A stretch of 34,092 bases of DNA from Azospirillaceae bacterium (GTDB taxonomy: Bacteria; Pseudomonadota; Alphaproteobacteria; Azospirillales; Azospirillaceae), in NCBI GenBank assembly GCA_028281465.1, contig JANQJV010000199.1, positions 1-34,092 of the forward strand, in the 5' to 3' direction. Below the pieces are notes generated by a model. It was given only the letters and a program-made list of their open reading frames with translations, did not search any database and was not told where the DNA came from. The position numbers were made by a program, and so were the translations under genes. Within the stretch, counting starts at the first letter, position 1; every line of letters begins with the position of its first letter. Below are positions 4,733-18,590 of this stretch, piece after piece.

Positions 4733-5833
4733 TTACTGCATTTCAGCGTAGGTGCCGTCGTTCCACTCGTAGAAGACGTAAGCGGTCTGCTCGATATCAC
4801 CCTTTTCGTCGAATGACAGCGGGCCAATCACCGTGTCAAAGCTGTTGGCCTTGATGTCAGCGATCTTCCCATCCAGGTCCATGCCGGCGCGGCCAACCGC
4901 ATCAACGAACACCTGCACCGCGGCATAGGTATAGAGCGTGTAGCCTTCCGGCTCATAGCCGCCGGCGCGGAAACGCTCGACGATCTCTGCCGCCGTTTCG
5001 AAATTGCGCGGATCGGGGCCGAACGTCATCAGCGTGCCTTCGCCAGCGTCACCGGTGATCGCCCAGTATTCATTGGTGACCAGGGCATCACCGGAGATGA
5101 GCTGGGTGTCCATGCCCTGTTCGCGCATCTGGCGCACCATCAGGCCGGCCTCGGTGTGATACCCGCCGACATACAGCACGTCGACCCGGGCTTCCTTGAG
5201 CTTGGAGACCAGGGCGGAATAGTCCTTTTCACCAGCGGTGTACGCTTCGTACAGGACTTCCTCGATGCCGAGCGCGTTCAATGCCGCCTTGGTCTCGTCG
5301 GCCAGGCCCTTGCCATAGGCGGTCTTATCGTGCACCACAGCAACACTGGCACCGGCGAAATTCTCGGCAATGTACGCACCTGCGACCATGCCCTGCTGGT
5401 CGTCACGGCCGCAGGTTCGGAAGACGTTGTCGAACCCCTGCTCGGTCAGGGTCGGGTTGGTTGACGCCGGAGAGATCTGGAGAATGCCCTCTTCATAGTA
5501 GACCGCGGAAGCCGGGATCGAAGAGCCGGAGCAGAAGTGGCCGGCGACGAACACCGCGCCTTCATTGACCATCTGGTTTGCCACGGCCACGGCTTGCTTG
5601 GGGTCGCAGGCATCGTCGCCGACCACCAGACGAACCGGCTCACCGTTCAGACCCCCGGCGGCATTGATGTCGGCGACCGCGAGTTCAGCACCGCGCTTCA
5701 TCTGGTCGCCGAACGTCGCGTACTGACCCGTGATCGGACCGGCGACGCCGATAACGATCTCGGCCTGGGCAACCGTGGCACCAAGCAAGGCAACGGTTGC
5801 AGCCGTCGCAACGAGAGCGCTCTTGAAAGTCAT
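4733..5833 (-). CDS. livK: Branched-chain amino-acid ABC transporter, periplasmic binding protein
   Basis: This is the periplasmic binding protein that hands amino acids, probably Leu/Ile/Val or relatives, to the LivHMGF complex. The product has 366 residues, normal for type I periplasmic binding proteins of the LivJ/K family. The signal peptide ends AQA before EIVIGVAGPITG. Family features are the GVAGPITGQYATFGDQM opening, AVADINAAGGLNG, DDACDPKQAVAVANQMV, and SPASTNPTLTEQG, which contributes to ligand binding. I chose the ATG at 5833 because it opens the signal peptide and has GGAG 8 bases upstream; frames starting earlier add a basic non-signal extension. It is the last gene of the liv cluster, 168 bases after the DUF6867-type gene, so it may also have its own promoter. 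Exact substrate cannot be read from sequence. Confidence 0.9.
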   Translation of the reverse strand: MTFKSALVATAATVALLGATVAQAEIVIGVAGPITGQYATFGDQMKRGAELAVADINAAGGLNGEPVRLVVGDDACDPKQAVAVANQMVNEGAVFVAGHFCSGSSIPASAVYYEEGILQISPASTNPTLTEQGFDNVFRTCGRDDQQGMVAGAYIAENFAGASVAVVHDKTAYGKGLADETKAALNALGIEEVLYEAYTAGEKDYSALVSKLKEARVDVLYVGGYHTEAGLMVRQMREQGMDTQLISGDALVTNEYWAITGDAGEGTLMTFGPDPRNFETAAEIVERFRAGGYEPEGYTLYTYAAVQVFVDAVGRAGMDLDGKIADIKANSFDTVIGPLSFDEKGDIEQTAYVFYEWNDGTYAEMQ

Positions 5834-6001
5834 TGGACTTGCTCCGTCTCTGTCGTCGTTGATTTCCCGTTTTCCCCGAAACCGGGATCCTCCCTCCGCC
5901 GGCACGGGGCAGCGTCCCGGCAAGGCCGCCACTCTATACCCGAAAATGACGACGACGGAAACGCCTGCCCCAAGGGTCGAGCAGGCTTTTCGCCAATTTG
6001 C

Positions 6002-6358
6002 TCACACATCCGCCGTGTCGGAGCGGGGCCGCCAGGTGAACGGCCCGGTGCGTTCGTAGAGCCACGGATACTGTGTGACCATGCGTCGGGCCCGGGTCAA
6101 CGCATAGGAGATCCAGGCAATACCGAACAAGATCACGGCATGGATTAGATACCCCGACAAGGTGAGCAGCTCACCCTCGAACAAGGCATACAGCAAAAAC
6201 CGGTCCGCCAGCCCGAGCAAGGCGCTGTAGATCACGACGAATCCCAACGGCTTCCAGCCGGTGGCCATGGCCTGCCCCATCAGGAAAGCGCAGCCCCCCA
6301 TGAGGATGATCGTCAAACCGATGAACACCGGCAGCGTCGTACCCAGGATCAGTTCCAT
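6002..6358 (-). CDS. Small membrane protein of the liv cluster (DUF6867-like)
   Basis: The product has 118 residues and about three hydrophobic helices (residues 10-30, 38-58 and 68-86), followed by a conserved-looking cytoplasmic tail with RARRMVTQYPWLYERTGPF. I recognise it as the DUF6867-type protein found inside alphaproteobacterial branched-chain amino-acid transporter operons; that name is from memory and moderately sure. Function is unknown; position suggests an accessory subunit or regulator of the permease. AAGGA lies about 10 bases before the ATG. It begins 26 bases after livF. Confidence 0.75.
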   Translation of the reverse strand: MELILGTTLPVFIGLTIILMGGCAFLMGQAMATGWKPLGFVVIYSALLGLADRFLLYALFEGELLTLSGYLIHAVILFGIAWISYALTRARRMVTQYPWLYERTGPFTWRPRSDTADV

Positions 6359-6384
6359 TGTGGCCCGTCCTTTTGCACCGGCAC

Positions 6385-10964: not shown

Positions 10965-12353
10965 TCAGAGATCTGACGGCACGGCGACGCTGCTGGCAGC
11001 CAATTGCTCAGCAAGGCTGTGTTTGAGGCGCTCAAGCCCCTCGACACTGCTGGATTCCGCCCGGGCGACCAGAACATCCTGGGTGTTCGATGCACGCAAC
11101 AACCACCAGCCGTCCGGCGATAAGACACGAACCCCATCGATATCAACGACCTGGAGTTTCGGGTCATCCGCCACGCGGGCCCGCACTTCCTCGACCACGG
11201 CGAATTTGCGTGCCTCATCGGTCTGGAGGCGAATCTCTGGTGTGTTGAACACAACTGGCAAACGCTCCCGAAGCGCTGCCAGAGGAATGCCGGATCGAGC
11301 CACCAGGTCGATCAGCCGCACAGCGCCATACAACGCGTCGTCGAAGCCATACCAGCGGTCATTGAAAAAGATGTGGCCGCTCATCTCGCCGGCGAGGGGC
11401 GCCCCGGTCTCGGCCATCTTGGCTTTCAGCAGCGAATGCCCCGTCTTCCACATCAGTGGTGTACCGCCCAGGCGCGTAACCTCGTCGAACAGAGTCTGAC
11501 TCGCCTTGACGTCGGCGATCACCGTGGCCCCCGGCCGGTCCGCCAAGACCTCGCCGGCAAAGATGGCGACCAACTGGTCACCCCAAACAATCCGGCCAGT
11601 CCCGTCCACAGCACCGATGCGGTCACCATCGCCATCGAATGCGACACCGAGGTCGCATCCGTTCTCGCGGACCACCCGTTGCAAGTCGACAAGATTCTCG
11701 GGTACCGTCGGATCAGGGTGGTGATGGGGGAACCGACCATCAACCGCATCGTAGAGCAGGACATGCCGCCCCGGAAGGGCTGCGGTCAACCGTCCGAGAA
11801 CGGCGGCGGTGGCCCCATTTCCAGCATCCCAAGCAACGGTCAGGCCAATGCCCCCCAGGTAATCCTGCTGCAAGCGCTCGATATAGGCCGACGACACATC
11901 CACCTGGCGCACCGACCCCGTGCCGTGCTCCCAGTCGCCCTGTGCCGCCAGGCGACCGAGGGTCTGAATATCGCGGCCGTAGAACGGTCCGCTGTTCAGC
12001 ACCATCTTCACGCCATTGTAGTCGGGCGGGTTGTGCGAACCGGTGACGATGACGCCAGCGTCGGCATGGCGATACTTGACGGCGAAATACACCATCGGCG
12101 TCGGCCCTAGGCCATGCCGTTCGACATGGATGCCCGCCGAGACCAAGCCGTCCACCAGAGCCTGCTCGAGAACCGGCGAACTCAGGCGACCGTCGTAGCC
12201 GACACAGACTCGATAGCCGTTGCGCCGACGCACGACGGTGCCGAAGGCCGCACCGACGGCACGATAATCTGCCTCGGTCAACGTTTCCCCGACAATGCCG
12301 CGGATGTCGTATTCCCGCAAAATCGAGGCATGGAAGACGTGCTGGCGCGTCAT
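10965..12353 (-). CDS. Phosphomannomutase/phosphoglucomutase
   Basis: This enzyme of the alpha-D-phosphohexomutase family interconverts hexose-6-phosphate and hexose-1-phosphate (mannose and/or glucose), feeding sugar-nucleotide synthesis. The 462-residue product contains all four active-site loops: TGSHNPP with the phosphoserine S106, the metal-binding DGDGDR (D240, D242, D244), the sugar-binding GEMSGH (322-327), and the phosphate-binding RASNT (420-424). The GEMSGH form fits AlgC/ManB-type dual-specificity enzymes, but specificity cannot be fixed by sequence alone. After RASNT the usual QP or EP is QD, a minor oddity. I chose the ATG at 12353, where homology begins (REYDIRG); AGGTG lies 6 bases upstream. 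It starts 7 bases past the ugd stop, so the two are co-transcribed. Confidence 0.9.
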
Positions 12354-12360
12354 GGCACAC

Positions 12361-13692
12361 CTAGTCTTGTTCTGGCGTGGCGACGCCGGCCGGCCGGCCA
12401 ATGGATGTGTACCGGAACCCGGCGGTTGCCATCTCCGGCGGTTTGTAAATGTTGCGCAAATCAACCATCACCGGAACCCGCAGCAGCGACTTCACTCGCT
12501 TCAAGTCGAGGGCCCGGAATTCGTTCCATTCCGTCATGATCGCCACCGCATCGGCCCCATCCAGGGGTTCATAGGCGTTCTGGCACCAGGTTACGCCTTG
12601 CAGCAACCGAGCGGCTTCGGCCATGCCGGCCGGATCGTAGGCTCGTACCTGGGCACCTCCGGCCTGTAGCGCGGGAATCACCTCCAGTGCCGGACTTTCG
12701 CGCATGTCGTCGGTGTTCGGCTTGAAGGTCACCCCGAGGATCGCGATCGTCTTGCCATCGACCGACCCGCCGCAGGCCGAGACGATTCGCTCGGCCATGC
12801 TTTGCTTGCGCAGCCGGTTGACGTCGACCACCGTCTCGACAATGCGCATGGGGGCTCCCGCGTCCTGCGCCGTCCGCACCAACGCCAAGGTATCCTTCGG
12901 GAAACAGGACCCACCATAGCCGGGCCCGGCGTGCAGGAATTTGCGCCCGATGCGACCATCCAGACCGATACCACGGGCCACGTCGTGCACATTGGCGTTG
13001 ACCTGTTCACATAGGTCGGCGATCTCATTAATGAATGTAATCTTCGTGGCCAGAAAGGAATTGGCGGCGTATTTGATCAGTTCAGCGGTTTCCAGGGTGG
13101 TCACGACCACGGGCGTTTCGATCAGGTACAACGGGCGGTAAAGCTGACCCATCATCGCGCGGGCCCGCTCCGACTCCGTGCCGATGACAACCCGATCCGG
13201 ACGCATGAAGTCGCTGATGGCCGAGCCTTCCCTCAGGAATTCGGGATTGGAACAGACGTCGAAATCGGCATCCGGACGAATGCCGCGGATGATGCGTTCG
13301 ACTTCCCGACCGGTGCCGACCGGCACGGTGGATTTGGTCACGACCACGGTATAGCCATCAAAACCGCGGGCGATTTCCTCGGCGGCGCGGTACACGTAGC
13401 TCAAATCGGCGTGCCCGTCGCCCCGGCGGCTGGGCGTGCCGACGGCAATGAACACCGCATCCGCATCGCGCACCGCACTATTCAGGTCTCCGGTGAACGA
13501 CAACCGTTCCGCACGGACGTTCTTTGAGACCAGGTCCTCCAGACCGGGCTCGTAGATCGGGATTTCGCCGCGCCGCAGGCGGGCAATCTTGGCCTCATCC
13601 TTATCGACACAGACCGTCGTGACCCCGAACTCGGAAAAGCAGGCGCCGGATACCAATCCGACATAGCCCGTTCCAACCATGCAGATCCGCAT
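12361..13692 (-). CDS. ugd: UDP-glucose 6-dehydrogenase
   Basis: The enzyme oxidises UDP-glucose twice, with NAD+, to UDP-glucuronate for capsule, exopolysaccharide or lipid A modification. The product has 443 residues. The Rossmann NAD site GTGYVGL is at residues 8-14, STVPVGT at 121-127, the substrate loop with EFLREGSAI at 151-159, and the catalytic cysteine C263 in [10 protein letters not shown]. Two ATGs lie six bases apart; AGGGGG sits six bases before the second (13692) and touches the first, so 13692 is preferred. The gene lies between galU, which makes its substrate, and the phosphohexomutase, all on one strand. Confidence 0.93.
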
Positions 13693-13722
13693 TGTCATCC
13701 CCCTGCCCGCCGTTTCCGCGGA

Positions 13723-14607
13723 TTACTGCCCGCACGCGCGCCCGTATTGCCGCAAAAGCGTGCGCATATTGTCGGCCATGTCGGTGCGGGTTAGGGCGTG
13801 GGCGATCGAAGCCTCCAGGAATCCGATTTTACTGCCGCAGTCGAACCGTCGACCGTCAAATCGAAATCCGTGGAAAGGCTGCAAGCCGATGAGCTGCGCC
13901 ATGGCATCGGTGAGCTGAATTTCGCCACCGGCACCCGGCCTGTGCCGCTCAAGATGTTTGAAGATATCCGGTTGCAGAATGTAGCGCCCGATGATGGCCA
14001 GAGTCGACGGAGCCTGGTCCGGGTTGGGTTTTTCAACCACTCCGGCGACGACGACGCTCCGGCCCTGATCCTGCGCAACATCAACGATGCCGTAGCGTTT
14101 CACCTGATCCCGCGGCACGTCAACCACAGCGACCATGTTGCCACCCACCTGCGCGTAGTGGGCAACCATCTGCTTCAGACAGGGTGTGTCGGAGAGGATA
14201 AAATCGTCCGGGAGGATAACGGCGAAAGGATCATCGCCGATCATCTCGCGGGCACACCAAACCGCGTGCCCAAGACCCAACGGCATGGTTTGGCGCGTGT
14301 AGAACAACCGTCCGGGTTCAATCTCGGTGTTGCGCGCCGCATCCAACGCTTCCAGATTGTGCCGAACCTCAAGGGTCTTGTTCAGCTCCATATCCGTGTC
14401 GAAGTGATCCTCGATGGCGCGCTTGCCGCGACCGGTGACGAAGACCATGTCCTCGATGCCGGCAGCCCGGGCTTCCTCCACCGCATGCTGGAGCAATGGC
14501 TTATCAACCAGCGGCAACATTTCTTTCGGAATGGCCTTGGTTGCGGGCAAGAAGCGCGTGCCGAGCCCGGCGACGGGAAAGATGGCTTTGCGAATCGGCT
14601 TGTTCAT
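13723..14607 (-). CDS. galU: UTP-glucose-1-phosphate uridylyltransferase
   Basis: GalU makes UDP-glucose from glucose-1-phosphate and UTP. The 294-residue product has the nucleotide-binding opening FPVAGLGTRFLPATKAIPKE (residues 10-29), the sugar-binding VDKPLLQHAVEEA, a GHAVWCAR motif, and the LPDD metal/nucleotide region around ILPDDFIL. I chose the ATG at 14607, as homology starts right after it; upstream starts add about 56 residues unlike the family and overlap the J-domain gene. The Shine-Dalgarno sequence is weak. Thirty bases separate it from ugd, giving the order galU-ugd-mutase in transcription. It lies directly downstream of the two VWA/J-domain modules on the same strand. Confidence 0.92.
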   Translation of the reverse strand: MNKPIRKAIFPVAGLGTRFLPATKAIPKEMLPLVDKPLLQHAVEEARAAGIEDMVFVTGRGKRAIEDHFDTDMELNKTLEVRHNLEALDAARNTEIEPGRLFYTRQTMPLGLGHAVWCAREMIGDDPFAVILPDDFILSDTPCLKQMVAHYAQVGGNMVAVVDVPRDQVKRYGIVDVAQDQGRSVVVAGVVEKPNPDQAPSTLAIIGRYILQPDIFKHLERHRPGAGGEIQLTDAMAQLIGLQPFHGFRFDGRRFDCGSKIGFLEASIAHALTRTDMADNMRTLLRQYGRACGQ

Positions 14608-14713: not shown

Positions 14714-15532
14714 TTACTGCAACAACCGGTCGCGCGCTTGGTTGATTTTCGCCGCCAAATAGGTTGAGCCGCCATGATCCGGATGAACCCGCTGCATGAG
14801 GCGGTGGTGGGCTTCCTTCACGGCCCGGGTCGACGCATCGGGTGTCACGTCCAAGATCAAACAGGCTTCGTCGAAGGACATGGACTCTGCCAGCGCCCCA
14901 TTGCCGGAGCGTGCCGACGCCCGTGCCGCTGCGGCCTGCTCCTTCTCCCAGGCATCGGGAAATGTGCGGCGCAGCCAGGTTTCCAAGAGCTGCGCCGATT
15001 GTTGATCGGCCCGCTCGCACTCGCGTTGCAGACTCAACCCCTCATCAAACGACAAGGCCTTGAGTGGCTTGCCGCGCAACGGCCCTCGCAGGATGCGACC
15101 GCTCAGACTTCCCGAGTTGATATCCAGCTTCATAGTCAGGTAGCGGGTCTCGACCCGCGAAATCTGCTTGCGGCGCGGTTTCGGCGTCACCCATCGAATC
15201 AACCACTCAAAGCTGGGCAAACGAAGGCTGGGTGCCTTGCCGCCCAGATAGGAAGGAATCGATGGTTGCGATTTCAGTACCTTGTCTTCTTGCGCGACCA
15301 CGATGCGCACAAGCACAACCGTTCCGGCCACCAGCGACATGCCGACGAAGGCGACGATCGAAAGAAAGAGATGGCCAAGCTCGTACAGGAAGTCGCCGAA
15401 AAATACGGCGACCCCAAACAGGAAAATGGCGAAGGCGTCCGTCACGACCGCTGGTTTGGCGAGGACGATACCTCGAACCAGCACCGCCGCAGCTATGACG
15501 AAGACCACACCGAGAATGATGGCCGGCAGCAT
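14714..15532 (-). CDS. Membrane-anchored Tim14/Pam18-like J-domain protein (module A)
   Basis: J domains stimulate the ATPase of Hsp70 (DnaK). This 272-residue protein has N-terminal hydrophobic helices (about residues 3-24, 30-50 and 57-78), a basic linker, a middle region (about 130-200), an Ala/Arg-rich hinge, and a C-terminal J domain (about 217-272) with the catalytic HPD at 250-252. The C-terminal J domain, HPDHGGS and LAAKINQARD strongly recall mitochondrial Tim14/Pam18 (HPDKGGS...AKINEAKD); Tim14-like proteins are known in alphaproteobacteria. The middle region, with MKLDINSGSLSG and QSAQLLETWL, is shared with the paralogue at 16819-17538 and I cannot name it. It begins 21 bases after the VWA gene, so they form one unit. 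The Shine-Dalgarno sequence is weak. The J domain is secure; its client is unknown. Confidence 0.85.
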   Translation of the reverse strand: MLPAIILGVVFVIAAAVLVRGIVLAKPAVVTDAFAIFLFGVAVFFGDFLYELGHLFLSIVAFVGMSLVAGTVVLVRIVVAQEDKVLKSQPSIPSYLGGKAPSLRLPSFEWLIRWVTPKPRRKQISRVETRYLTMKLDINSGSLSGRILRGPLRGKPLKALSFDEGLSLQRECERADQQSAQLLETWLRRTFPDAWEKEQAAAARASARSGNGALAESMSFDEACLILDVTPDASTRAVKEAHHRLMQRVHPDHGGSTYLAAKINQARDRLLQ

Positions 15533-15553
15533 TCGGACACGACCGTTTCGGCC

Positions 15554-16453
15554 TCAACACGCCGTCTGAGCGAGGTCTACCTGGTGGGTCAGCAGCCGCA
15601 GCACGCCATCGCCACGGGTACGGCTCAAGTCGCGTAACGCGCGACGGCCACCGGATGCGTAAACCGCCACCGCATTCAGCAACTCACGCAATTGGTCCGG
15701 GCTGGCCGCGTTAAAGGCCGCATAGGCACCGCCGCTGTGGCGCGCGATATCCTGATAGATGCCGCGTACCGTCTCGTCGGTGCCTTCCTGGAACATGAAG
15801 ATCGGCACCCCAAGCAGACCGGCCTCACCCGCCAAGCGGAACAACTGTTCGCGGTTCTCCTCGACGCTGTCGCCGACGTAAACCAGTGCGCTGATCCGCG
15901 CCTCCCGGTGTTCGCGCAAGGCGTGTTTCAACACCCGCCGAATCTGGGTTTCACCGGCCAGGCACTCAACCGCACGCATCCACTTGACGATTTCCTCCGG
16001 ATGGTTGGCCCAGGCACTCGGCGTGAACTCGCACAAGCCTCGGAAATACACAAGCTGAACCTCCAGTCCGCCAAAACTCGACGCACTGTTGAACATTTCC
16101 GCCTGGGTTTCGATCGCCCGCCGCCATGTTGCCTGGCGGCTGGCGGTGGCATCCATGCCGAAAATCAGTCGGCCGGTACCAAGGGACGGCATGCGGCTTT
16201 GCATGGCGCTGAGAAAAGTGTCAACCGACGGCCGGGAGGCGACGGCACGTTCACCAGCAGCAAAGAAACCGAACCGGCTGAGCGCCGTTCGGGTCGGCTC
16301 GGCTGCCACGTCCAGTCGGGCCGGCAGCCCAGCGACATCCGTCGCACGCCACTGCGCACCTGCGAATAGGGATTGCACGCCCTCGGCAACATCCTGCCAC
16401 AACGCACTGATGGGGGTGGCCGTCTCCTTCACGGTCCAGCTCTTTTTCTGCAT
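15554..16453 (-). CDS. VWA-domain protein with intact MIDAS (module A)
   Basis: VWA domains bind partner proteins through a divalent metal (MIDAS). This 299-residue protein has no signal peptide or membrane helix, so it is probably cytoplasmic. All MIDAS parts are visible: D101-A-T-A-S105 in FGMDATASRQ, T169 in GETQI, and D195 in YVGDSVEE. Residues 1-75 form an extra N-terminal region absent from the paralogue at 17865-18590; the rest aligns with that protein throughout, including GGLEVQLVYFRG and ISALVYVGD. I chose the ATG at 16453, which has GAGG 9 bases upstream; starting at 16816 would add 121 poorly protein-like residues. It is translated just ahead of the J-domain gene. Role unknown; a metal-dependent adaptor presenting clients or partners to the J protein is inference. 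Confidence 0.8.
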   Translation of the reverse strand: MQKKSWTVKETATPISALWQDVAEGVQSLFAGAQWRATDVAGLPARLDVAAEPTRTALSRFGFFAAGERAVASRPSVDTFLSAMQSRMPSLGTGRLIFGMDATASRQATWRRAIETQAEMFNSASSFGGLEVQLVYFRGLCEFTPSAWANHPEEIVKWMRAVECLAGETQIRRVLKHALREHREARISALVYVGDSVEENREQLFRLAGEAGLLGVPIFMFQEGTDETVRGIYQDIARHSGGAYAAFNAASPDQLRELLNAVAVYASGGRRALRDLSRTRGDGVLRLLTHQVDLAQTAC

Positions 16454-16818
16454 TGGTCCAGTCCTCGGATTCTTGTTGTGCGTTTTTTTTCCTGCGGTCG
16501 TTGGGGTCACCACGGGTGGGAGGCCGCAGATTGGTGCAACACCGAGAGTGCTGCTGCGAAGCGTGCACAGTAGCCGGTTTGGCCACAGTGCCCGCGTGGC
16601 ATTTCGCCGCGATTCCCCGACCGTCTGCAAGAGAAAAAAACCGAAGTATTTTGCTTGTTCATCTAATGATCCGGCCGACCAGCGGCCCACGATGGGAAGT
16701 CCTTTCTTTAATTGGGGCTTTCTTGCCGGAACACCATCGCTGATCGATGGGTTGCGACCCATCACCACAACAACGGACGCCACACCTGGCACGCGGACAG
16801 CGGTCCTTCCGCCCAAAG
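16454..16818. other. 365-base gap between the two VWA/J modules
   Basis: An open frame on the minus strand continues upstream from the VWA gene, but its translation (many Arg, Ser and Thr, no family pattern) looks non-coding. The region is locally AT-richer than its surroundings, with T runs around 16484-16492 and A runs around 16633-16640. That fits a promoter for module A. A small hairpin GGCCG-ACCAG-CGGCC lies at 16673-16687. No gene supported. Confidence 0.45.
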
Positions 16819-17538
16819 CTATGGAGTCAATAGCAAATCGCGTGCGGCATTGATCTTGGCGGCCAAAAAACCCGACCCGCCGTGATCGGGGTGCACGGCC
16901 TGCATCAGGCGCCGATGCGCCTCCTTAACGGCCTCCGGCGACGCCCCGGGTTCAAGACCGAGGATGGAATAGGCTTGGGCCCTGGTCATCGGTCCGTCAT
17001 CGCCCATCTGCGCCCCGGCGCCCGTGCCCGACTCCTGCTCCTCCCGCGCAGAACGCCACGACGAACCTTGCATACGGTCAAGCCACCCCTCCAGAAGCCG
17101 GGCCGACTGAGGGTCTTCGGTTTCAGCCAGGCGCAGGAGATCAAGCAGCTCGGCCAGACTCAAATCGACCAGAGAGCGACCAGCGTATGGCCCCGCTAGA
17201 ATTTCCCCCTGCATGGCACCGCTGTCATGGTCCAAGCGCATATGCAGGATGCGGGTGCGCACCTCGGAGGTCTGTCCCGGTGTGGGTCGAGTGCGCCACG
17301 GCACCGGACCACCCGCATTGCGCCAGCGCCAGATCAGCATTGCGAGTGGCAACACGGTCGCCAGCACCAAACCGAGTCGCCCAGTCACCGCCAGAAAAAG
17401 GATGAGACCTATGCCAACCGTGATGGCCGCGGTCCGCACCACCCGCGCCAAAACACGTGGCGCCGTGGTCAGAAAGGCGCGCAAAAGACAGTACACGCCG
17501 GCCAGAACCGCGATCCCCAGAAGGAAGTATCCGAGCAT
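16819..17538 (-). CDS. Membrane-anchored Tim14/Pam18-like J-domain protein (module B)
   Basis: Paralogue of the protein at 14714-15532, with 239 residues from the ATG at 17538. Two or three N-terminal hydrophobic helices lie within residues 1-70. The shared middle region (about 92-160) contains MRLDHDSGAMQGEILAGPYAG and QSARLLEGWLDR (cited as short motifs), then comes a Gly/Glu-rich hinge, and the C-terminal J domain has HPD at 216-218 followed by HGGSGFLAAKINAARD. Conservation of the middle region between the two copies, despite divergent membrane parts, argues that it has a specific function. The upstream Shine-Dalgarno sequence is weak; I chose this start because the hydrophobic helix begins right after it. 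It lies downstream of its VWA partner with a 326-base gap. Confidence 0.83.
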   Translation of the reverse strand: MLGYFLLGIAVLAGVYCLLRAFLTTAPRVLARVVRTAAITVGIGLILFLAVTGRLGLVLATVLPLAMLIWRWRNAGGPVPWRTRPTPGQTSEVRTRILHMRLDHDSGAMQGEILAGPYAGRSLVDLSLAELLDLLRLAETEDPQSARLLEGWLDRMQGSSWRSAREEQESGTGAGAQMGDDGPMTRAQAYSILGLEPGASPEAVKEAHRRLMQAVHPDHGGSGFLAAKINAARDLLLTP

Positions 17539-17864
17539 GATGGTTTGCGCCGTCCCTTGAAATCTATCCCGTCCGGACCGTTCCGCCACCGTCTCGGCGG
17601 TGGGCAGGAACGTCAAGCACCCCACTTATTCTGCCTGACCCCGTGTGCCGACAAGCGGTGCTGAGTCGTTTGCCGCTCCCCTTGGTTCGCGGAAAATGCT
17701 CCCACTTCTTGTTTTTTCAGCAAATCGTCGCAGAACAAGACAATTGCTCGTGATTTGTCCAAAGCTGGTTTCCCACTCAGGGGATGCAGCCAGAACCGTG
17801 CTCGTTCTGTGTTCGACCGCATTTTCGGACCGCGAAACCATCCCCACTTCCACCGAAATGGGTT
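17539..17864. other. 326-base gap between VWA and J genes of module B
   Basis: Two overlapping short minus-strand frames exist here (within 17613-17853), but neither has a ribosome-binding site or recognisable motif. The segment separates the module B genes, unlike the tight 21-base spacing in module A. A decayed gene or a separate promoter for the J gene is possible; I see no specific signal. Confidence 0.4.
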
Positions 17865-18590
17865 CTAACGCGAAGACGTCCCGGCGACCATGTAAGTCAG
17901 GCGCTGTACGGTGTCTCCCTTACCACGGCCATAGGCTTCCAGGGCGGGAACGCCACCCGCTGCAAACGCGGCGACCGCCCCTAAAAGCTGGCGCAACTGG
18001 TCGGCGCTATGCGCATCGAACGGACAATAAGCACCGTGGCTCAACCGGGCGACTTGCTCGAACGCCACCCGCGCGCCCGGTTCACCGCCTTCATGGAAGA
18101 GGAACACGGGGGTGCCAGCCAAACCGAGCTGGCCAGCCACATGACACAGATCGTCAACCGGTTCTTCCATGTGATCGCCGACAAAGACCACCGCATGGAC
18201 CCTCTGGTGCGTGGTCTCCTTCAACGCGTGGCGCAAGACCCGCACGATCTGCGTGCGTCCACCCAGGCATGACACGGCCGTCATGCGCTGCAGCAAGGCC
18301 GTCGCATTGTTCACCCACCCGCTGCTCCGGCACTCCCTGAAGCCACGATAGTAAACGAGCTGAATCTCCAGCCCACCGAGCGCCTCACTGGCCAGGAACA
18401 TCTCGCCTTGCAAGTCGCACGCCCGATCCCAGGTTGGCTGACGGCTGGCCGTCGCGTCCAGGGCGAACATCAACCGACCGCGACACCGCCCCATGTCGAC
18501 CGGCGCCGGAACAGCGGCCATGTGCCGCAAGAACGCATCGACCGCATCCCTTTTGGTCCCAGCGCTCGGAACCGACTTTCCATCTGCCAT
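17865..18590 (-). CDS. VWA-domain protein with intact MIDAS (module B)
   Basis: Paralogue of the protein at 15554-16453 and shorter (241 residues), lacking its N-terminal extension. The MIDAS is complete: D45-A-T-A-S49 in FALDATASRQ, T113 in GRTQI and D139 in VFVGDHMEE. Shared blocks include GGLEIQLVYYRGF, QIVRVLRHALKE, GTPVFLFHEGG and HSADQLRQLLGAVA. No signal peptide. AAGGAG ends about 8 bases upstream of AGCATG, placing the start at the ATG at 18590; a GTG at 18602 would overlap that ribosome-binding site. It starts about 100 bases after the hybrid kinase on the same strand, so they may be co-transcribed. Function unknown. Confidence 0.8.
   Translation of the reverse strand: MADGKSVPSAGTKRDAVDAFLRHMAAVPAPVDMGRCRGRLMFALDATASRQPTWDRACDLQGEMFLASEALGGLEIQLVYYRGFRECRSSGWVNNATALLQRMTAVSCLGGRTQIVRVLRHALKETTHQRVHAVVFVGDHMEEPVDDLCHVAGQLGLAGTPVFLFHEGGEPGARVAFEQVARLSHGAYCPFDAHSADQLRQLLGAVAAFAAGGVPALEAYGRGKGDTVQRLTYMVAGTSSR

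Follow-up and report, generated by a model that had tools for sequence, protein, structure and literature searches.

Two ancient tandem gene pairs for a VWA protein and a Tim14-type membrane J protein in an Azospirillaceae bacterium: a candidate DnaK-recruiting module

A stretch of 34,092 nucleotides from an Azospirillaceae bacterium (contig JANQJV010000199.1, referred to here as the window) carries two pairs of genes in tandem on the minus strand, between positions 18590 and 14714. Each pair consists of a gene for a soluble protein with a von Willebrand factor A (VWA) domain followed by a gene for a membrane protein with a C-terminal J domain (Table 1). The original prediction, made from the DNA letters alone, had placed such a pair here twice in the same order and on the same strand, and all four genes were indeed located, each as an apparently intact open reading frame (ORF). 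NCBI names the genes of such pairs just 'VWA domain-containing protein' and 'DnaJ domain-containing protein'. Judged from the start codon and the sequence upstream of it, translation probably begins at the ATG codons at 18590 (VWA1), 17538 (J1), 16453 (VWA2) and 15532 (J2). The GC content by codon position is gene-like and uniform with that of the neighbours (GC3 0.71–0.74), and a pattern scan for promoters and terminators between the genes gave no more than the level of shuffled sequence.

Table 1. Features of the VWA-J locus and its surroundings in the window.
Feature	Position	Strand	Description
VWA1 (type A)	18590-17865	-	241 aa, soluble VWA protein; MIDAS D45-x-T47-x-S49 / T113 / D139
VWA1-J1 spacer	17539-17864	-	326 bp, unusually long
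J1 (type A)	17538-16819	-	239 aa; membrane helices ~1-74, middle domain ~90-170, J domain 184-239 (predicted)
VWA2 (type B)	16453-15554	-	299 aa; N-terminal extension of ~60 aa; MIDAS complete
J2 (type B)	15532-14714	-	272 aa; HPD kept; hairpin turn LDINSG (H104 -> I)
galU-like nucleotidyltransferase gene	13723-14607	-	conserved neighbour downstream of the pair; context, not core
ugd (UDP-glucose dehydrogenase)	12361-13698	-	conserved neighbour; context
phosphoglucomutase/phosphomannomutase gene	10965-12464	-	conserved neighbour; context
hybrid histidine kinase gene	21791-18690	-	receiver, DUF3369, HisKA, HATPase, receiver, Hpt

The window VWA proteins score below the Pfam cut-off and no convincing link to solved structures was found at the sequence level. 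A VWA fold is nevertheless predicted by the AlphaFold model (predicted local distance difference test, pLDDT, 88), whose top structural matches are the VWA domains of TFIIH p44 and Rpn10 (Z ~18). The residues of the metal ion-dependent adhesion site (MIDAS), D45, T47, S49, T113 and D139, are identical in 82/82 aligned family members, both window copies included. With a predicted alpha/beta Rossmann-like fold and a complete MIDAS (DxSxS/DxTxS, T, D) the proteins are members of the VWA superfamily.

Hydrophobic helices are absent from the VWA proteins and present at the N-terminus of the J proteins. In the structure model of J1 they span residues 2–24, 27–52 and 55–74, followed by a beta3-alpha3 middle domain, a flexible linker and the J domain. 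A hairpin turn of the middle domain, LDHDSG at 102–107, lies between predicted strands 98–103 and 108–113. The HPD motif (216–218 in J1) is found in all 78 aligned J members and is kept in both J1 and J2, and as a J-domain fold with HPD is present, both belong to the J-domain proteins. In detail, their J domain belongs to the Tim14/Pam18 type, being nearest to Tim14 by profile (E 1.6e-18; runner-up 1.1e-8) as well as by structure (2guz_A, Z 10.3), and closer to it than to DnaJ or DjlA. The predicted J domain with its HPD was thus correct, although its Tim14/Pam18 type had been missed.

The two window copies are 46% identical in VWA and 45% identical in J, a similarity far beyond chance. The divergence that had been claimed also extends to the N-terminus of VWA2 and to the long VWA1-J1 spacer, other VWA-J pairs being spaced mostly by 12–140 bp as measured between profile edges. 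Copy 2 groups with the galU-adjacent pair of a genome from another genus of the family (G009), with a support of 100/98 in the VWA tree and a weaker one of 90/68 in the J tree. A recent tandem duplication is ruled out by these identities together with the sister pair in another genus; the proposed duplication holds insofar as the two pairs lie side by side, and they are ancient paralogues kept in tandem, an age that had likewise escaped the original prediction. Among 82 genomes of the family, VWA was found in 41, the type-B copy only in the window genome and G009, and both pairs in tandem in the window genome only. Two other genomes of the class (G204 and G306) contain two pairs each, every VWA with its own J.

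J2 lacks H104 (LDINSG for LDHDSG), which is kept by nearly every VWA-paired J protein, and therefore the two window pairs are not equivalent. They are probably specialised and may, as had been suggested, serve separate clients, and the missing H104 may reflect specialisation or a partial loss of the usual contact in J2. The view that neither pair is decaying is accordingly upheld by the intact MIDAS and HPD of both, but not by the turn of J2.

For the class-wide survey 289 genomes were searched. VWA was present in 101 and the long J protein in 111 of them; both occurred in 100, VWA alone in one, long J alone in 11 and neither in 177 (Fisher p ~1e-63, relatedness of genomes not corrected for). 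For 98 of the 104 VWA genes, the next gene downstream on that strand is the long J. J also adjoins every VWA in 39 relatives, and a scan of 480 relatives in named genomes found it beside VWA in 79 of the 80 loci kept, the exception stopping at a contig end. Named carriers include Azospirillum, Skermanella, Kiloniella, Thalassobaculum, Nisaea, Halochromatium and Thiohalocapsa; in Azospirillum brasilense the two proteins are WP_137142927.1 (VWA) and WP_175426645.1 (J). As the two families occur together and adjoin each other across the class and in some Gammaproteobacteria, they cannot be said to co-occur rarely, the outcome that would have spoken against the original prediction. In the single genome with VWA alone (G121) the VWA is divergent; at this locus (L129, 4680–6622) its gene is followed by one for a 438-aa, probably coiled-coil protein, and no J gene was found nearby.

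VWA is present in 80/80 genomes of one genus and in 23/299 of a phylum-wide sample. Anti-phage defence was considered and rejected, because none of the four proteins matched PADLOC and the uniform presence within that genus is unlike the sporadic distribution typical of defence genes.

Most commonly the genes run mipZ-VWA-J-galU-ugd-pgm, and a gene for a D-Ala-D-Ala carboxypeptidase lies beyond them. Gene order near mipZ and galU is generally conserved in Alphaproteobacteria, and VWA and J might accordingly do no more than share a conserved operon while functioning independently of each other. This we consider very improbable in view of three observations. Firstly, VWA and J are unlinked in five genomes, in two of them ~1 Mb apart on one contig, and both genes are kept in all five, with intact MIDAS and HPD and a D-H-x-[ST]-G hairpin; in two of the unlinked genomes the ancestral operon is broken exactly between VWA, in the mipZ region, and J, with galU-ugd-pgm. 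Secondly, the pair exists outside that operon: in 24 loci, the majority with Gammaproteobacteria in their titles, no neighbours other than VWA and J recur in most loci, and on a Microvirga plasmid they overlap by one base while galU is absent. For this reason the two genes form a unit of their own. Thirdly, the distances of VWA and J correlate across the 55 loci that have all three of VWA, J and galU (0.66), and still do so when galU is held fixed (0.585). The co-retention after separation and the correlated divergence speak for a functional link and against adjacency alone. No VWA-J gene fusion was seen among the ORFs examined.

Another suggestion is that the pair serves envelope polysaccharide or nucleotide-sugar metabolism, with GalU, Ugd or a polymerase as client, which would explain the galU-ugd-pgm operon. 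Indeed, the galU cluster stands beside the pair in 54 of 100 loci, in the recurring order VWA-J-galU-ugd-pgm, and J stays beside galU where VWA has moved away. However, the Gammaproteobacteria-type loci and the Microvirga plasmid do without this neighbour, the galU distances correlate only weakly with those of VWA or J (0.17 and 0.26 over the same 55 loci), and mipZ upstream of the pair is an alternative recurrent neighbour. We therefore regard such a role as improbable.

A possible contact between the two proteins emerged when 159 long J proteins were compared. The hairpin-turn histidine H104 is kept in 128/134 J proteins from VWA-bearing genomes as compared to 9/24 from VWA-less genomes. L102, G107, R155 and S222 likewise differ by the presence of VWA, whereas D142 and most positions of the J core do not; D142 as a specific VWA contact is thereby ruled out, since it is kept equally without VWA (0.95 versus 0.96). 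In the tree of J proteins, those from VWA-less genomes form 11 clades, of which seven are without the motif, one is mixed and three, all from one genus, have it; the sole nominal H104 in the seven motif-less clades (L242) falls within a scrambled stretch. In three of four families (f40, f70 and f80), LDH is found in VWA-bearing members and not in VWA-less ones. Furthermore, at locus L086 (6141–8237) two tandem J genes lie behind one VWA gene, the adjacent J reading LDHDTG and the second LDPDTD. These patterns are suggestive of a relaxed constraint on J, particularly on the hairpin, after loss of VWA, and of docking at the hairpin. In the VWA-less genus that keeps the motif, HPD has become NAD in two genomes and YPD in a third (L224, L226 and L228), which points to decay following the loss of VWA.

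Taken together, we propose that VWA docks on the hairpin turn of J and that both form one DnaK-recruiting module of the inner membrane, a reading to which we assign a probability of about one half. The J protein would be anchored in the inner membrane via its N-terminal helices, with the middle domain and the Tim14-type J domain presumably facing the cytosol, where HPD would recruit and activate DnaK at the membrane. For its part, the soluble VWA protein would bind the J protein, or a ligand shared with it, via its metal-bearing MIDAS face, the exposed LDHDSG turn being the leading candidate docking site, and might thereby position or regulate the action of DnaK on a membrane-proximal client. 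Of the earlier interpretation, co-occurrence and adjacency are now established; the conservation of MIDAS and HPD would fit a VWA protein that acts as a metal-dependent adaptor delivering clients to a DnaK-recruiting J protein, a role that we infer from these motifs.

Several observations weigh against this proposal. The p values are inflated by relatedness, and since 11 of the 289 genomes carry J without VWA, J can persist alone. The hairpin association was first noticed in 11 VWA-less genomes; of 13 added later six agree and seven, all from one genus, disagree by retaining DH[DN][ST]G. Conversely, six J proteins of VWA-bearing genomes lack H104, window J2 among them. D103 and D105 are not invariant, which makes a direct acidic MIDAS ligand uncertain, and the membrane topology of the J protein is a prediction.

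It is also conceivable, if rather unlikely, that VWA mainly regulates J, in the way that Pam16 restrains Pam18 in mitochondria or CbpM restrains CbpA, and is not a client adaptor. VWA is almost never found without the long J while J is sometimes found without VWA, as expected of an accessory regulator, and since the dependence is stronger on the side of VWA, this role fits almost as well. Pam16 indeed regulates a Tim14-type J protein, Pam18 (PMC12953747). However, sequence and structure comparisons revealed no resemblance of VWA to Pam16, and the metal face of VWA is conserved throughout, even in phage versions without an adjoining J, which suggests a ligand beyond J. An HPD-less J-like paralogue that could be likened to Pam16 was met in one genome only, although no systematic search was made: a lone J2 relative in G009 (L037, 8640–9488), comparable to Pam16 in architecture only.

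In the window, the order on the minus strand is hybrid histidine kinase, VWA1, J1, VWA2, J2, galU, ugd and phosphoglucomutase gene. The hybrid histidine kinase occupies the position often taken by mipZ in relatives, and the start codon of the phosphoglucomutase gene is probably internal to the called ORF.

Relatives of the VWA family were also found in phages. A scan of viral contigs gave ~99 of them, and no J gene was seen in 79 of the 80 loci kept (L141–L220). These genes form part of a replication/recombination cassette, together with genes for primase-like proteins and Cas4-type exonucleases, and integrase and terminase small-subunit genes are present in several of the contigs. The phage proteins match the cellular family in MIDAS and in the surrounding top-face residues R50, W54, R82, W92, C108, Q114, E142 and E143, and branch outside the cellular clade with a support of 0.95; the one phage-type VWA queried against a collection of known phages had no match there. 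Possibly, the phage VWA is a mimic of the host protein. A more far-reaching and unlikely extension would be that VWA as metal-dependent receptor on a Tim14-type membrane J constitutes a distinct Hsp70 targeting system, a bacterial counterpart of the import-motor J protein, imitated by VWA-only temperate phages that engage host J/DnaK during replication.

A further form was observed at locus L130 (G366:C1:1001000-1012000, 5004–6382), where a gene for a 146-aa short J protein without middle domain precedes that of a divergent 313-aa VWA protein, i.e. in reversed order. Both genes overlap by 4 nt and adjoin a VirD4/TraG-like gene, and the locus may represent a second version of the VWA-J pair, a mobile one.

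As had been supposed, no description of a pair of VWA and Tim14-type membrane J was found in the open-access literature that was searched, and a prior description elsewhere is possible. MoxR AAA+ chaperones are known to partner with VWA proteins (PMC7159879). The pairs RavA-ViaA, NorQ-NorD and CoxD-CoxE resemble the present one in that a MIDAS-bearing VWA is encoded beside a chaperone component, but here the VWA has beside it a membrane J protein of the Hsp70 system and not an AAA+ ATPase, and no MoxR-type AAA+ gene is among the recurring neighbours (J, galU, ugd, pgm, MipZ and D-Ala-D-Ala carboxypeptidase). If VWA is tied to J, the theme of VWA and chaperone would extend from AAA+ MoxR partners to Hsp70.

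DjlA, the proteobacterial membrane J protein, shares the membrane anchor and the C-terminal J domain; identity with it was rejected on the NCBIfam DjlA score (28 bits, cut-off 162). CbpA-CbpM likewise comprises two genes, one for a J protein and one for a small modulator, but the CbpM family is unrelated, and CbpA, a soluble protein, has its J domain at the N-terminus.

Tim14-like proteins of Alphaproteobacteria (TimB) were reportedly described by Clements et al. in 2009. Given the type of its J domain, the present pair bears on what the relatives of the mitochondrial import-motor J protein do in bacteria, as it provides a Tim14-type J with an obligatory-looking partner, accessible in ordinary laboratory Alphaproteobacteria, and with the phage-borne VWA relatives as an independent handle. 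Tim14/Pam18, the closest known protein by sequence and structure of the J domain, likewise has an N-terminal membrane part followed by a C-terminal J domain. Its simple layout of one membrane segment and then the J domain differs, however, from the middle domain and the two to three predicted membrane helices found here, where the partner is a VWA protein instead of the J-like Pam16 and the context is not that of TIM23.

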